64,000 bases of DNA, taken from NCBI GenBank assembly GCA_030737835.1, contig CM060850.1, positions 30,731,716-30,795,715 on the forward strand, read 5' to 3'. Position 1 is the stretch's first letter; each line of letters begins with the position of its first letter. Below the pieces are notes generated by a model. It worked only from the letters and a program-made list of their open reading frames with translations. It searched no databases and had not been told where the DNA came from. Shown piece by piece: positions 3,780 through 15,000 of this stretch. The translations under genes and the position numbers were made by a program. Origin of the DNA: Acorus gramineus (Eukaryota > Streptophyta > Magnoliopsida > Acorales > Acoraceae).

Positions 3780-6700
3780 CTAAGAAGAGCACAAAGAAGC
3801 CCTCTGCTTCACCAACAACTGCTTTAGCTTTCTGATCATCTGGGAGTCACCACAGACGTGATCCTCGAAGGTCTCTCGCAAGCTCTGCAGCACCACTGGA
3901 TTATTGCCATGGGAGCTGCTGTTTAACAATGTTGAAAATAGATTCTTCCAAAGGTCAACCTTCCAATACCTGAAAACAGGCACAAGGGAACTCATTAAAC
4001 ATTTCAATTTCATAGTATCATCAAGAATAAAGTTATGGGGGTTTCATACCGTTTTAGAGATGATTTTGGTTGATAATGGTAGCTCCCATCTGATGAAGGC
4101 TTCTTTTCAATTTCCATGTATGTTCCATGCAGCATCATATGCGTGATGACACAGAGACAGTACGTGTCAACCTGGTAGGAATTTTATGTAAGCTTTAGAT
4201 TGAATCCAGTTATATGATGCCTAATCATTTACTAGGGGCAAAAAGGACTGGCCTGAAATGTCCATGGCATGTTCTCTTGCATCTCGATACAACTGAAGCT
4301 AGAAGTTCGGCAATCCCCCTTGAACCCTGTTTTGACTGGAAAGAGATTTAAATCTATCCCTCTTCCCCAGTCCACAAGGCAAAGTCCCTGGATAATGAAA
4401 AGTGGCGATAATCACAGACTTCTATTTCAACTTGATGCTGATATCCAATCTACCCATGATAAACTCACCTGATCATGCCAAGCTCCCTTTCGGCCAATAA
4501 ATTCTTCCTCAGTTAAATCACCCCTTCCAAAATAAATAAGACGTCATTCTTGGGATCCAAGATAAACAATGTCTAGTTGTAAACAAACTAAATTATATTA
4601 TTACATCAAGTTCCATCACAGGTCTAAGAGATTTAGCAAATCCAAGAGGACTTCATAGCATCAGAATGCCAACAAGACCCACTAATAATATGCCCAACAA
4701 GATGGATATGCCTCAATTTGGTGGACACAAATAATGAAACTCAGAAACTAAACAATTATCCATTTGGCTGTTCAGCAAGCTTATGCGGATGTCCAAAATG
4801 TTTTCCAGTCTGCTTAAAGCAGACTTTTGGCCTTCCCAAAATTAAATCAGAGAGGCAGAGCATATTCAATAAGCATGTACAGGCATGTCATTCAAAAACA
4901 TCATGTGGATATTCTGGGTTCATATAAGATTCCGACGGATAAAACAACAGAATGCAATAGACCAGTTTATATTTTCAATATAACAGATCCAGACTAACAT
5001 GTGTATGAAACTACATACAGTGATTCTCTGAAATAAACATGACCCATACCTGGCATAACGGACAAGTAAATTGTCAGGCTTAAAATCGCCATGAATGATA
5101 CCAACGCTATGTAAAGTCTCCAGCATGTGCAGCATCTCCAAGGTGTAATAAATGCATAATTCTTCTTCCATGCAATGACCAGTCACCAGATACGAGTTTA
5201 TAGCATCCTGCACAAGGGAAAAACATGAAGATGAATATGGCAATTTAATGCATCTCAAGCAGTTAAACTAAGATGATCATTCTATAGCCACCTGAAGTGT
5301 TCCATGAGCTTTAAAGTCACAGACAAGTATGCTCCAATCAGCATATGCATGCAATCGATGAGCAACCCCAAAACTTGATCTCTGGCAAGATTACAAAGTG
5401 TCAACAACACCCATAAGATTAATTTGGTGAGTTGATTACTTCTGCTTGTACAAAAGTCCATGAAAAATGACATACTTTGTCATCGGAGATGCGCATGTCT
5501 AGTTGACGGTACATATAAAATTCCCAGGGGAAAGGTGGAGTTTGAATCTGCCTTAAGATTATAGGATAAGATGGTGAAACAAAGGCCAAAACATACAAAG
5601 ATGAACAATAGTCAATATAAATAAATAAATGGCAGCACCTTTAGGGCAACAACATCATCAGGATTGCTGTTCTCAAAGGCTTTGTATACTCGAGCAAATG
5701 CACCCTGGCCTGAGCAGCCTTTGATCTGGTATTTTCTTCCACCTTCCAATATCATATAAAAGCTTATATTTCTATAATCAAGCCATTAATTATTTCAATG
5801 TCAAATTTAAATTAGCTGAATTCATGGAATGAGGGTTCACACCCACAACTATTTTTTTATTGACATGATATTTTTATATAACAGATAATTAACAGAGTAA
5901 AGGGACAACCTAGCTCAATGACTTTATTTCTTGATGAGGTATGTAGAGAATTCAAAGGTACTTTTCCTGCATATTTCTTTAAACTCCTGTGAAAACCCTG
6001 AAATAAATGTACAATAAAAATCATAAAGAAGAGAAAAGGTCCAACACTGAAAATTTAATGACCTTGAGATATCTCACATCATATTTAAGGATGTTTTTGT
6101 CTATCTTCTGGAGAATATCTTGAATTGTTGAAGTTGCCCATGGGTTTATATAGCTCTGTCCATGTGAGTAAAATACTCAATTAGAAATCCAACTACAGGA
6201 AAGAGTAAAGAAAATCAAATGCATATCAGTCATAAGATCACATTTCTCTGTAGATTCTTGTCAAAGCATAACTCAACATCTCTCAAGCACATAACAAAGC
6301 CTCTATTACCTAGGATGAGGCGATCAAATTCAAAATATGCACAGAGTTCCAACATAATAAAGCAATCTAAATAGACACAGAGAAGCTACCAACATAAAGA
6401 GACCATGAAACCGGTGGTTATAAGAATAATTGGATAATGAAACCAATTTTTTTTTTTGGAATACTAATTTACCAAACTAGTGAAACAAACAGTGAGAAAA
6501 GAGAAGAATAACAGAAACCAAATTAAGTACTTTGATAATTTTCCTCTTCAGGGACCCAAACCATGTCTTATAAAAAACATAGCTTTGCTACATATATTTA
6601 AACAAATGGAAAGCAAACATTACCTTCTGATTCTTATTTGAACAAGAATCCACAAAATCTGAAATCCGATTTAGGAACAATTTGTGCATCTTCTTCAGCC

Positions 6701-7419
6701 TTTCAAGCGGCTCTGCCTTCCTTTTGCGAGTTACCAACCGAAAAGGAAGAAAAAAACAAACCAAGCAATCAAAAGGAAAGACGACAATAGATAGAACAAC
6801 CCCAACAAACACAATAAGGAATCCATGGTAAATTCAAATATATGTACATTTTTTTTTAAAAAAGAAGAGAATACGAAACAAAAGGACACCTTGAAATGCC
6901 GAGTTGATAGAAACTGAGGGCTTCCACCAAATCCCCCTTCGACTCCATTAAGAAAGCGAAAGCCTCATACAGCAACGAATGAGAGATCCCAATCTGCTTG
7001 TCCTCCATTTCCAAGTAAACTTTCTCAACATCTTGAGTTACATCCGCCTATGAAAATTAACATAAATCTTTATTAATTAATTAAAATGGAATCTAATTCG
7101 ATAACAATTGAAGCATTTCCACGAAATCTCGCTCGGCCACTCACATAGAGGATCCAGATCTTGAGGAACCGGACATCATCCTGATACAAGTCACTGTCCA
7201 TGAAGGTCCTGATGCAGTCCCCGAGGAGCTCTTCGAGGCGCGAGAAGGAGGATTCCGCGCCACTGTGGAATTCCTCGAGCACCGTCTCGATCGATCTGCA
7301 TCGGAAACAATCGATGAATGCGAAGATGAGTGGGGAAAGACAGTATTCGTGTGAGGTGGAGAGTGAGAGATGAACCTCAGCCATGGCAAGATGGGATCTT
7401 TGGCGGAGATCGAATCCAT
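3780..7419 (-). CDS. BUB1: BUB1 spindle-assembly checkpoint kinase
   Basis: Kinetochore checkpoint serine/threonine kinase. Exons on the minus strand: 7419-7376, 7295-7145, 7047-6890, 6720-6624, 6155-6063, 5997-5910, 5742-5639, 5547-5476, 5381-5292, 5207-5050, 4523-4469, 4387-4253, 4171-4050, 3969-3780. They give 518 residues, close to other plant BUB1 proteins. The N-terminal Mad3/BUB1 TPR-like region covers about residues 10-150 (KDPILPWLR, RFLKIWILY, GISRKAEPLERLKK). The kinase domain follows from about residue 210, with glycine loop GCSGQGAFARV, lysine in VVALK, catalytic loop HGDFKPDN and DWG in place of DFG, as is usual in BUB1. The start ATG precedes DSISAKDPILPWL. The intron after PWTFQ has a GC rather than GT donor (see findings). 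The kinase domain separates it from BUBR1/Mad3. Confidence 0.95.
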
Positions 7420-7891
7420 GAGAGCTCGAGCAAGTCCAAACTCGAAGAAACGTAGACGCAAAAGCGAGAATTTTCAAAGAGATTTGAATGGTTTGGGACT
7501 TTTAGGTCTGTGAGAAGGGGGTGTGTTTTGGGGGGAAAACTTTAATGTGAGAATGGTAAGATAATCCGCGGTGTATATATTTTTCGAATATTACATTTTT
7601 TTATGGTTTCCGCTCGAGTTATATATAGAAGATCTGAACCGCCAATTGGATACACTCCTACAGTCATTTAATAATCCGCCGGAATATTATATCAAAACCT
7701 ACCGCTGAGTGGGGGGGTCCGTCGGATGTTGTGGCGGAACCTTAAAACGGTGTTGGTTTCCGTGCAGTCATGGTTAAATCTCGACCGTTGAAATGCAGGG
7801 GTTCCTTTCATCGCAAGCCACCGACGCGACATCATAAAAAGGCGAGAATCTTCGAAACCCGTTCACCATTTCAAAATAGCGAGGAGGAGAG
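7420..7891. promoter_or_regulatory. Shared divergent promoter of BUB1 and POLD4
   Basis: These 472 bp separate the two divergent start codons and contain no ORF of interest. Two AACGG cores are visible: one on the plus strand at 7746-7750 and one on the minus strand at 7785-7789 (CCGTT on plus). AACGG is the core of the plant mitosis-specific activator element bound by MYB3R factors. The minus-strand copy, TTCAACGGTC, is close to the full consensus and faces BUB1. No clear E2F site was seen. The functional role is inference. Confidence 0.45.
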
Positions 7892-8394
7892 ATGGCGACG
7901 AAGGGACTGGAGAATTTCTACCGGCAGAGGAAGAGCAGTAGCTCCTCCGTCGTCGGCGGGAAATCGAAGCCTTCTCCGGCTTCGAAGAGGTCTCCGAACA
8001 TCGGCGTCAGCTTCGGCTCCGACCACGCTCAGCCGGCCGCGCTCGTCTCCCACGGATCGCTCGATCTTCGCAGTAACGGCTCTGATCATCTCCACTACTC
8101 TCTTAATAAATCGGATCGTATTTGATTTTTGGTGTAACAAATCGAACTAAGGTTTCACATCCATCCCCAAATTGTGCAGATGATTGTGGAGAAGAGGAGG
8201 AGATGCTGAGGCAGTTCGACATGGACATGACGTACGGACCGTGCCTCGGTATGACACGTCTGCAACGGTGGGAGCGAGCGCGCAATATGGGCTTGAACCC
8301 TCCCAAAGACGTCGAATGCCTCCTCCAAGGAGACGGTGGTGACGGCGGCGATGGCCGTGTTGGGGTGGGGTGCCTTTGGGAAGGCCGTGTTTAG
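7892..8394 (+). CDS. POLD4: DNA polymerase delta subunit 4 (p12)
   Basis: Smallest accessory subunit of replicative DNA polymerase delta. Two exons, 7892-8072 and 8180-8394, join with phase continuity across the GTAACG donor and GTGCAG acceptor and give 131 residues. The C-terminal block FDMDMTYGPCLGMTRLQRW followed by ERARNMGLNPP is the conserved POLD4 core that contacts the catalytic subunit. The N-terminus ATKGLENFYRQRK resembles a degenerate PCNA-interacting motif, followed by a low-complexity Ser/Lys linker. The first exon is GC-rich. The last 25 residues after the core are Gly/Asp-rich and poorly conserved. Other ORFs over exon 1 in both strands are shadows. Confidence 0.92.
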
Positions 8395-8964
8395 GGTGTC
8401 TGTGAATGGCCTTCGGGTATGTTTTAAGGGTATCTCACAAAAAGATGGAATTTCAAGTGGGGGAAATGTAATTTTTGTTTTTGGTTGGGGGGGCTACAAC
8501 CCCTGCTGTATGTGAAGTTTTATGTGGAATGGTGTATGATTTTGGATGGATATGTCTGTTGTTCCAGTTATATTAGTAGCCTTGATTTTGGAATTACATG
8601 GATGTGTATCTTGAATTACCATTTGAAATTTCTGCTAGTTGGTGCATTTTAAAAACATACACCTTGACAGGGGCTGTTTGGAAACCATTTGAAAAATTAA
8701 ACATGTTTTGTTGGCTCACACACCGTTAGTGTGAACCCTTCACCATACACTCATCAGGATTGTCCACTCTAAATGGGGAAAATCTTGTGCGTCCGTAAGT
8801 GGGAAAAACTCTTGTAAAAGTAGTACCTACTGTGTAGAGAATATCAAGGACAATAGCAGTTGTGAACTTGCAGTCCATGCCTTGGTTTTTAACTTTTGAC
8901 CCTTCAGAGATGGTGGTTATAAGTGGAGAGCTTCTGCTGTTTGTTGAAGCATTGTGTTCTTGAG
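8395..8964. other. POLD4 3' UTR and spacer before MIR2275 cluster
   Basis: No gene was recognised. The first few hundred bases are presumably POLD4 3' UTR. The remainder must contain any independent promoter for the hairpin array, but no convincing TATA box could be assigned. Confidence 0.4.
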
Positions 8965-9048
8965 GTTTTGAATGTGATGATTGGAGGGAGCTAAACTATT
9001 CTTTCCTTGTGAGAAGCAATTAACTGGTTTGGATCTCACCTTCAAAAG
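8965..9048 (+). ncRNA. MIR2275-like hairpin 1, eroded
   Basis: The 5' arm (TTTTGAATGTGATGATTGG then AGGGAG) is intact and resembles the star strand of miR2275. The 3' arm keeps only the ends, CTGGTTTGG and ATCTCACCTTCAAAAG, and lacks the central CCTCCAAT of the mature sequence. It is probably a dead copy of the neighbouring precursors. The upstream flank ATTGTGTTCTTGAGG (8951-8965) is repeated in front of hairpin 5, showing that the units arose by duplication. Confidence 0.5.
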
Positions 9049-9081
9049 TTTTCAGTCTCTTGTTCTCATACTTTTTTGAGT

Positions 9082-9165
9082 CTTGATAGTGAGAATTACA
9101 GGAAGTCGAACACTTGTGGATGATAGAAAATATTGTTTGATTTCCTCTGATATCTCACCTTCAAA
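9082..9165 (+). ncRNA. MIR2275: MIR2275-like precursor, hairpin 2
   Basis: The arms 9082-9113 and 9134-9165 pair along about 30 bp with a loop near 20 nt. The predicted mature 22-nt RNA is 9136-9157 on the 3' arm (starts TTTGATTTCCTC, ends TATCTCA). From memory, grass miR2275 reads TTTGGTTTCCTCC and ends AATATCTCA, so the ends and the CTC core agree. In grasses 22-nt miR2275 sets the phase of 24-nt phasiRNAs in anthers. Expression is not visible from sequence. Confidence 0.75.
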
Positions 9166-9203
9166 TGCATTGCTCCAAACATTGGTAGCCATTCAATGAG
9201 GAG

Positions 9204-9284
9204 TTTGAATGTGAGAATTGTAGGAAATCAAACCAGTTTCACAGTCAAAAGTGGTTCAAATTGTTAACTCTGACGCGCTCTCAT
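9204..9284 (+). ncRNA. MIR2275-like hairpin 3, eroded
   Basis: The 5' arm TTTGAATGTGAGAATTGTAG followed by GAAATCAAACCA (9204-9234) is nearly identical to the 5' arm of hairpin 4. The expected 3' arm at 9251-9284 (GTGGTTCAAATTG then TCTGACGCGCTCTC) keeps only weak complementarity and no recognisable mature sequence. It is likely a decayed unit of the array. Confidence 0.45.
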
Positions 9285-9303
9285 CATGGTATCTTCAGCG
9301 GGG

Positions 9304-9395
9304 TTTTGAATGTGAGAATTGTAGGAAACTGAATCAATGAGATCCTTTGATTGGGAGACAAATGGTTCGATTTTCTCCAATATCTCACATTCACT
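9304..9395 (+). ncRNA. MIR2275: MIR2275-like precursor, hairpin 4
   Basis: This is the best-conserved unit. The arms 9304-9336 and 9364-9395 pair with 11 contiguous base pairs (TGAATGTGAGA) at the base and further pairing above it. The predicted mature RNA at 9366-9387 begins TTCGATTTTCTCC and ends AATATCTCA. Its last 13 nt, CTCCAATATCTCA, are identical to the miR2275 sequence as I remember it. The loop is about 27 nt. The star strand lies near 9313-9334. Confidence 0.8.
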
Positions 9396-9449
9396 GGCTC
9401 AGTCAACTGAAACAGGTACACCGTTCTTGTGTGTACATGTGGTATTGTG

Positions 9450-9535
9450 TTCTTGAGGAGAATTGGAGGGAATCGAAGAATTTTGTTTTTGATGGTTAAA
9501 TAGCTCAATTTCCTCCGACATCTCACCTTCAAAAC
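9450..9535 (+). ncRNA. MIR2275: MIR2275-like precursor, hairpin 5
   Basis: The arms 9450-9480 and 9501-9535 pair. The 5' arm AGAATTGGAGGGAATCGAA closely resembles the known miR2275 star strand (AGAGTTGGAGGAAAG in maize, from memory). The predicted mature RNA is 9504-9525, starting CTCAATTTCCTCC and ending GACATCTCA. The minus-strand ORF spanning hairpins 4-5 is a by-product and not a gene. Confidence 0.75.
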
Positions 9536-9639
9536 ATTATTTACACATTAAAGCAACCTGTTTTAAGGTAAATTCATTACTCAAGATGACCTTGTCCTCA
9601 GGGTACTCTTCTTTCTTTATGCATGCTATCTTAGTGGTT

Positions 9640-12069: not shown

Positions 12070-15000
12070 ATGGGGTCGAGTGGCAGCAAGGACTCCTCGG
12101 TTTCGGCGACGGCGGCCTCGTCTTGTGCTTCTTCTTCGTTGTCGACCGTCGCCAGAGTTGTTCGATGGAGAGGGCCTAAGGTCTTCCACTCTTCGTGTCT
12201 CGGGAGACCCCCAGTGCCGTCCTTGTCATCGGACAACGACGATGAGCAAGTACTCTCTCTCTCTCTCTCTCTGACTATATTTTTCTCTCGTTCGCACATT
12301 TTGGACCTTTCGCCAAGCACCATGAGTTGATCTTGATTCGTAGTGACAGTATCGTATTAATTTGGGGAAGTTGAAGAATATTTTGATTCAATAAAAAATA
12401 TATTTGGAATAGATAGAAATCAATTTATGTAGAGTAGTAAAGCATACAATATATGAGGACAAGCATGTGAAACACATAATTAATATTTAAATTATTGCAC
12501 AAGACAATTTGGCAAAGGTACCGGTCATGTAAGAAAAGTTTGCTCCAAAGTGTAATTTTTCCGGGGAAAGGAACAGTTTTTGGTTTTTTTTTTTAAACCG
12601 TCTGTGGCATATTATATTTTCATTTACAGTTTGTGTGATATGTACGCATATTTGGTTAAGTTTCAACTAATTTGGTTTTACAAAATAATCTGGAATTAAA
12701 GGAACTGGTGAGATTCATGACATTTTGGAAACTTTTTCCTGAATTTGGACAGTTCTGTCAATTTGGTTTGTTTTGTGTTCAAGTTGACATTTTGTCATTT
12801 AAATTTATGGACTGAACAACATCATACCCTGCTCATTTGGAGTGCATGTGATGCGCAGTTATCAGAAATTCTGAAGTGTTTTTTTTAGTTTAGCAGAGTT
12901 AAGTAGCTGCAGAAGTTCTAACGTAGTAACACGCCTATAGACTATAGTAGTGAGTTTTCCCAATTATTTTATTCAGGAACCCCGTACTCAAGATGAGAAT
13001 GGAAGGACAAAGGGTGAGATGCATTTGGAGAAGCCAGAAACCGATTCCTTCAAAGAAAAGAACAAGAGGCAAAAGAAGATCAAGGTCCCTTATGACGCAT
13101 GTAATGAAGAGGGCACCTCCCACAATGACACTGCTGCCAGCAGCAGCATCATCTGTAACCAAGAAGTTGTGGATAGATTTTCAAACCCTTTGAAGCGCTC
13201 ACGTTCACGCTTTAGGTTCATTCCTGACAGGATTGGGTTTAAGCTCGGGAGGTCCGCCAGTTTAGGGTCCTCGTCAGGTGGACGTCCATTCTTTTCAGAA
13301 AATCACTTCATCTCGAATTCTGATGAAAATTCTAATCATATCGATTCCACTGCTGGAGTGTCTGATGACAATCCTTCCATTAATGTGGATAGCACTGGAG
13401 CTGATGCCATTCTAGATGAGTACACGAACCATATAGGATATGAAAGCATCGAACCAAGGCGTCAGGGTAGGCGATCTGGTGTGCAAGAGACATTGGAAGG
13501 TAGCATTCGGTTTAGCAGAACATTGAGCGTCGGACGGCTTCGTGATAGAGTTCTTCGCAGGACATCATTTTCTGAGGGGCCGTTTGGTTCCATGTTAGAA
13601 GATGGGTCAATCTTGTACAACGGGCGCAGCAGTGGTAGACAGATGATGGGTGGCCTTACAAGAAATGACGCCTTTTCTGATCGGGATAGTGAAATGACAC
13701 CAACTTATACTGTGTATGGTTCGGCCAATGGAATTCATGACCAAGAGTTAGATATTACGCCGTCCAGAGAGGCCCGTATGCACGAGTTCACAGAACAGAG
13801 GTCTGCTTTCCTTGAAAGAAGAAGGAGAATAAGATCTCAGGTCTGAAAATATGAGGTATTTTGTTTCTTATTTTGATGTTTTTCCAAAAAAACTGACGCC
13901 TTTGATTTCTTTAATATCACAGGTGAGAGCACTTCAGCGCTTGGGTAGCCGGTTTGAGAATCAATCCGGACATGAGAGGTCATGTATATTGTCCGATCTA
14001 CATCAAGTGGGTCGTTGTACATGCAGGAGTAATCGTTTGGCCAATCCTGAAGATGACACGAGTGCCCGGGCTAGTATATCAAGGATTGTTATGCTAGCAG
14101 AAGCATTATTTGAGGTTTCATATATTTGTGACTCTCCCTTATTCTTTTGCTTGACAGTACCATTGTCTCAATATCTTATAACTATTGTATATTAGGTTCT
14201 GGATGAAATTCACCAGCAATCTGTGGTTTTGTCTTCCCAACCCTCTGTGTCTTCCATTGGATCCACACCTGCACCCAAGGAGGTTGTTGAATGCATGCCT
14301 GTGAAGATATATACAAAACCACATAAAAATCAGAGTGAGGAGTCTGCACGGTAAGTTCTCTCTTCATTATCATATGTTATAGCCCCTGATGTAAATGATC
14401 ATAAATAAATTTATTAGAACCAATGATGTCCTTATCATGTAACATTTAATTTCTGCCTGTTATATGTTGTGTCTACTGCTTTTTTTGAAGAGGTGTAAAC
14501 AGTAACTGTGTATTTGAATTTTAGCTTTAACCTTTAGAGAACTTTTTTGGAGAATAGAAAATTGAGTCTTGCATTATGGTTGTCTTGTATATGTCCTCTG
14601 AAAAGCATCTTTAAGTGTTTAGCAAAGCAGCCTTTTTTTTCCTCTCTTTTTCTTTCTTTTTTGGCTGATGCTGTGATGCAATGGGGACTTCGATTTGTTG
14701 GATCAACACGTTTAAACTCATGTCCTAATCTGCTTTTCGTTTATGCATATGGGTGGACAGATGTTATATTTGCCTTGTGGAATACGAGGAAAGAGATTTG
14801 ATGCGTATTTTGCCCTGCCATCATGAATTTCATAGAACATGTATCGATAAGTGGCTGAAAGAGTTTCACAGGTACACGTTGATTTGGAGCAATGTTTCTC
14901 AGCATTACTTGCATTTTATATACTTTGCGTGGATAAGACTTTTTGTACCACTGACATATATAGAAAATTAGCAAGCGGTTGCCAACACAGTTGCTTTATC

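Follow-up and report, generated by a model that had tools for sequence, protein, structure and literature searches.

Clusters of MIR2275 hairpins are believed to set off the making of small RNAs as pollen develops. The miRNA is expected as 22-nt reads in meiotic anthers, and the Dicer of the pathway is DCL5 in monocots, with DCL3 proposed for eudicots. According to Xia et al. (2019; PMC6367383), MIR2275 occurs in many angiosperms, almost all of which carry at least one polycistronic cluster; one such cluster contains up to six read-supported stem-loops, and 24-PHAS loci share the target motif without other similarity. The window studied here, i.e. the whole stretch of 64,000 nt that was analysed, spans C4:30731716-30795715 of the Acorus gramineus genome (398.6 Mb in 137 contigs); positions given without a contig are those of the window. 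It carries a MIR2275 locus that is ordinary for the family and of a kind already known. As in the angiosperm clusters described in PMC6367383, stem-loops lie tens of bases apart and contain a bulged miRNA/star duplex, and sites similar to the miR2275 target motif are likewise numerous in the genome. Unlike in those clusters, the mature segment is partly or wholly missing from two of the five units in the window. Full-text literature searches returned no paper on miR2275 together with Nymphaea and 24-nt, nor on miR2275 together with Acorus and phasiRNA.

We propose that the locus is probably a MIR2275 gene with a promoter of its own, a paralogue of clusters on C10 and C6, which is losing function. 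Its features, with the neighbouring gene upstream, are:

8110..8394, plus strand, C-terminal part of POLD4 (DNA polymerase delta subunit 4), Pfam PF04081, E 1.1e-20
8854..8877, plus strand, 24-nt upstream element, 2 mismatches to the C6 copy
8918..8925, plus strand, TATA-box position by alignment and spacing, TATAAGTG as against TATAAATA in the C6 and C10 plus-strand clusters
8964..8997, plus strand, unit 1, 5' (star-side) arm, 28/32 identical to the C10 plus-strand cluster over 8964-8995
9024..9047, plus strand, unit 1, remnant of the 3' arm, from the alignment
9080..9167, plus strand, unit 2 hairpin, RF03896 51.6 bits
9092..9112, plus strand, unit 2, inferred 21-nt star, from the 2-nt-overhang rule applied to the fold
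9136..9157, plus strand, unit 2, inferred 22-nt mature miR2275 (C4:30740851)
9203..9233, plus strand, unit 3, orphan 5' arm, 27/28 identical to the C10 plus-strand cluster over 9205-9232
9303..9397, plus strand, unit 4 hairpin, RF03896 55.1 bits, the top score in the window
9315..9335, plus strand, unit 4, inferred 21-nt star, from the 2-nt-overhang rule applied to the fold
9366..9387, plus strand, unit 4, inferred 22-nt mature miR2275 (C4:30741081)
9450..9535, plus strand, unit 5 hairpin, weakened, RF03896 31.3 bits
9504..9525, plus strand, unit 5, inferred 22-nt mature miR2275 (C4:30741219)

The five collinear units follow one another in tandem on the plus strand (8951-9535), behind a single common upstream element. 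Members of the 5'-arm repeat family are found at 8964, 9079, 9201 and 9302 and those of the 3'-arm family at 9132, 9362 and 9500. Unit 5 is absent from the former, its 5' arm having changed too much. Aligned with the C6 and C10 plus-strand clusters, unit 1 lacks 11 nt within the mature segment. Unit 3 has lost its 3' arm including the mature segment (junction at about 9254/9255 in the alignment), and the 5' arm of unit 5 carries a 3-nt deletion. The three 22-nt segments lie exactly where the initial annotation had placed them (9136-9157, 9366-9387 and 9504-9525), but the CTCC core ascribed to them is not shared by unit 2, which has CTCT. Three broken units, namely units 1 and 3 of the window and C6:9007334-9007416, have kept the 5' arm and lost the mature (3') arm to decay; unit 5 is the reverse case, and the numbers are too small for a test.

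When the units were folded individually, none of 200 shuffled sequences was as stable as unit 2 (z -4.08) or unit 4 (z -4.33), and 10 of 200 were for unit 5 (z -1.75). Units 1 (z -0.62, 48/200 shuffles) and 3 (z +0.87, 164/200) form no significant hairpin when folded singly. Thus, of the five tandem hairpins announced initially, five units are present and units 2 and 4 are well formed, whereas units 1 and 3 are no longer significant hairpins and unit 5 is weakened. In the folds, 20 of the 22 mature positions are paired in unit 2, 19 in unit 4 and 15 in unit 5. Mature position 17 is unpaired in both units 2 and 4, and this 1-nt bulge places a 22-nt mature opposite a 21-nt star, sizes that derive from the fold; the feature is not clearly present in unit 5 and absent from units 1 and 3. 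The matching star strand had been attributed to hairpin 5, which, with its 3-nt deletion and 15/22 paired positions, has the worst star of the three; the good ones belong to units 2 and 4. Folded as a whole, a 621-nt stretch was more stable than its shuffled versions (z -5.96, 20 shuffles), and its minimum-energy structure paired distant units instead of giving five separate hairpins; the similarity of the 5' arms to the complement of more than one 3' arm accounts for this.

Membership of the MIR2275 family is, by homology, secure. On the plus strand of a 901-base stretch, the Rfam model RF03896 matched unit 4 with E 9.2e-10, unit 2 with E 7.4e-9 and unit 5 with E 0.0011; minus-strand matches were weaker (unit 4 36.3 bits, unit 2 25.3 bits). 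All three plus-strand scores (55.1, 51.6 and 31.3 bits) fall short of the 60.5 bits set as curated cut-off, which is a curation rule and not a biological trait, and at curated cut-offs no Rfam family matched anywhere in the window. At genome scale the same hairpins have E values of 9.6e-8, 7.7e-7 and 0.112, so that unit 5 alone is not significant at that scale. The assignment is supported by paralogues with the same units and the same upstream element that do exceed the curated cut-off. At unit 4, MIR2275, the family originally suggested, scores 55.1 bits and the family ranked next 25.5.

The genome scan with RF03896 gave 26 matches, corresponding to at least 15 hairpins plus weaker readings of the opposite strand; it is a lower bound, since scoring covered 61 of the 65,981 candidates from the first look. 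Fourteen of these hairpins are clustered (six on the C10 plus strand, two on the C10 minus strand, three on C6 plus and three in the window), one lies alone on C9, and at least nine in the genome exceed the curated cut-off. The C10 plus-strand cluster (C10:10828013-10828751) consists of six hairpins, all over the cut-off (62.0-75.7 bits). The C6 cluster (C6:9007211-9007547) has three, of which the outer two score 77.7 and 69.6 bits and the middle one, decayed, 45.7 bits. Every hairpin of the window is outscored by all six on the C10 plus strand and by both outer ones on C6. The lone C9 hairpin (C9:6441276-6441392, minus strand) is divergent, with 44.5 bits; two sites matching the 22-nt target pattern described below lie 37 and 53 kb from it on the same strand. 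A genome search for MIR444 yielded one match, at 38.1 bits against a cut-off of 110, and a RuBisCO fragment compared with solved structures had a rice chain as its first match; neither result separates monocots from eudicots for this plant. When the 15 hairpins were aligned, a common helix of 27 pairs was obtained, with 95.3% of 403 cells paired. Two-sided changes occurred in 8 of the 27 pairs (shuffled mean 4.3; 7/500 shuffles as high), and an excess of further pair types was less marked (23 versus 20.5; 29/500 shuffles); this statistic is biased in favour of the helix, since the structure was derived from the same 15 sequences.

The window cluster is paralogous to those on C10 and C6, and of the pair that it forms with C10 it is the more decayed member. 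A DNA search with 8700-9600 gave identities to C10 of 72% (8948-9563) and 65% (8748-9164), and to C6 of 78% (8717-9071) and 70% (9135-9416). Window and C10 plus-strand cluster share the order of units, the upstream element, the TATA position, a POLD4 gene upstream and a RING gene downstream; the C10 cluster differs in having unit 1 in two copies and TATAAATA as its TATA sequence. Window units 1-5 correspond in the alignment to C10 units 1/2, 3, 4, 5 and 6. With C6 the window has in common the upstream region and the 5' arm of unit 1 (202 of 258 aligned positions identical) and also a last unit. These three related clusters, in different states of decay, illustrate the erosion of such a cluster once it has been duplicated.

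Clustering, strand and the DNA polymerase subunit gene upstream, here that of delta subunit 4, are supported (RF03896, Pfam PF04081). POLD4 has one clear paralogue in the genome, at C10:10825996 (68%), between two MIR2275 loci (a C2 match has E 1.43), and the RING-gene exon at 12941-13843 has a single one, at C10:10839998 (69%). As both paralogues stand beside the C10 cluster, we read the window and C10 regions as a duplicated chromosome segment. Neither gene matched a paralogue on C6 in the DNA searches of the genome, and a full-text literature search found no paper combining miR2275 and POLD4. On C10, MIR2275 loci occur on both sides of POLD4 (C10:10824692-10828751), with two divergent minus-strand hairpins upstream of the gene and the six plus-strand ones downstream. 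In the window, a BUB1-like gene (4923-7501, minus strand) is divergent from POLD4; its Mad3/BUB1 region is split over two frames, and a kinase fragment scores slightly below the Pfam cut-off.

The 24-nt upstream element, which contains the palindrome-like TGGACTTGCAGTCCA, is found at 8854-8877 in the window, at C6:9007100-9007123 and at C10:10827892-10827915. With up to 3 mismatches it has four sites in the genome (reversed control: none), three of them the MIR2275 clusters and the fourth on C7 with 3 mismatches; the three cluster matches arise by construction, and the result is the near-absence elsewhere. Inspection by eye of 400 bases at the C10 minus-strand locus revealed no copy. The spacing between element and TATA position is 40, 38 and 39 nt in the window, C6 and C10 plus-strand clusters, respectively. 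Relative to the latter cluster, identity is 67% in the promoter block (8800-8890), 67% in the stretch preceding it and 65% in the TATA region. The block is thus no better conserved than what precedes it, and it is the short element, with its spacing, that speaks for constraint on the promoter. Being nearly exclusive to the three clusters, this element is a concrete lead to what switches miR2275 on.

Suggestive of decay are the loss of units, the changed TATA sequence and the number of unique changes in the promoter region, 31 in the window versus 12 in C6 (Tajima-type statistic 8.4, the C10 plus-strand cluster being taken as outgroup without proof). The same observations, together with the damage to unit 5 and hairpin scores below those of the six C10 plus-strand and two outer C6 hairpins, could be explained by a dead pseudogene that has lost promoter strength and three of its five units, with the two good hairpins as untranscribed relics. 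We regard this as the less likely explanation, though one with a real share of the probability. The C10 plus-strand cluster has six good hairpins and yet 40 unique promoter changes, so that the promoter count alone is no proof of relaxed constraint. Moreover, the three mature segments are 21/22, 20/22 and 19/22 identical to those of that cluster (60/66 in total), and the stars of units 2 and 4 reach 0.86 and 0.95, compared with 0.38-0.67 for spacers and flanks and 0.61 and 0.77 for two loops; units 2 and 4 have also retained their 20 and 19 paired positions. From the other genomic matures compared, those of units 2 and 4 differ by at least 1 and 2 bases, respectively. From the preserved matures and the two preserved hairpins we infer activity, and units 2 and 4 are likely still to yield miR2275.

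Transcription might instead come from POLD4, the hairpins being processed from a long read-through transcript or 3' UTR without a promoter of their own: the POLD4 frame, which lies outside the miRNA unit, has the same orientation as the cluster and stops at 8394, some 570 nt 5' of unit 1, and the C10 cluster likewise has POLD4 upstream. On C6, however, the element and the TATA position are present and the POLD4 search gave no match, and we consider such an origin improbable. Still less credible are a different miRNA family and a repeat, such as a miniature inverted-repeat transposon, that mimics a miRNA cluster. Read on the minus strand, units 4 and 5 do outfold most shuffles (only 7/200 and 3/200 equally stable), and MIR1507 (25.5 bits) and MIR1446 (22.8 bits) match the 901-base stretch weakly; against this, unit 4 scores more than twice as high with MIR2275, and a DNA search of the genome with this stretch, which passes over very common words, gave 5 matches at E up to 0.001, all of them in the MIR2275 clusters of C4, C10 and C6.

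If the locus is a decaying gene under its own promoter, RNA polymerase II would start near 8950, about 30 nt past the TATA position. The Dicer-like enzyme of plant miRNAs would then cut 22-nt miRNAs from units 2 and 4, and poorly from unit 5. These would cleave non-coding transcripts at complementary sites, leading to 24-nt phasiRNAs in meiotic anthers, mostly together with the clusters on C10 and C6, which are stronger. In units 1 and 3, the orphan 5' arms can pair with the 22-nt miR2275 along most of its length with small bulges (to -24.9 and -21.6 kcal/mol), which raises the idea that they are kept as miR2275 binding sites in a transcript serving as target mimic or self-regulating sponge. 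We think this quite unlikely; the 27/28 identity of the unit 3 arm despite its lost partner is also explained by a recent deletion.

Sites resembling the miR2275 target motif are in excess in the genome. A 22-base pattern had 311 sites at up to 3 mismatches, compared with 54 for the reversed, 85 for the scrambled and 102 for the scrambled and reversed pattern. With no more than 2 mismatches allowed, it still had at least 100 sites and the scrambled control 4. It replaced, with the scrambled control added, a 17-base pattern that had given 603 sites versus 213 reversed at up to 2 mismatches. Among the best 100 of the 311 sites, 14 are inside MIR2275 hairpins and 86 outside. By a simple mismatch score made for this analysis, 68 of these 86 fit a variant not found in the window better, 11 a window variant and 7 both equally; the window locus may therefore be redundant. 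Pairs of neighbours less than 60 kb apart among the 86 were on the same strand in 19 cases and on opposite strands in 4, duplicated sites included; several sites have near-identical flanks and so are not independent. Groups of sites are present on C1, C8 and C11. When 27 pattern sites were folded with their upstream flank, 18 and 20 of 22 positions were paired at the two in the C10 minus-strand hairpins, and no more than 14 at any of the remaining 25. Searched at Rfam's gathering cut-off, six of the fetched pattern loci matched no family. An exact 22-nt match to the unit 4 mature, on the opposite strand, is located at C114:41248-41269. The 2,001 bases around it (C114:40250-42250) contain no other match to the window at E below 0.001, and no hairpin forms there in the 160 bases folded. 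We therefore list it as a candidate 24-PHAS target.

The excess of target-like sites is consistent with a retained 24-nt phasiRNA pathway. The initial annotation had taken the cluster to place the plant among the species that keep this pathway; the genome content agrees (better clusters, target-like sites and DCL3-like genes), but this evidence lies outside the locus itself. With MIR2275 in several duplicated clusters, the plant probably retains the trigger of meiotic 24-nt phasiRNAs. The Dicer_dimer domain was found at eight places in the genome, four of which we take, from the translations by eye, to be DCL3-like, a label that does not separate DCL3 from DCL5. They form two pairs, C4:17743772 with C4:17900328 and C5:15329419 with C5:15363897; the members of the C4 pair have identical scores and opposite orientation.
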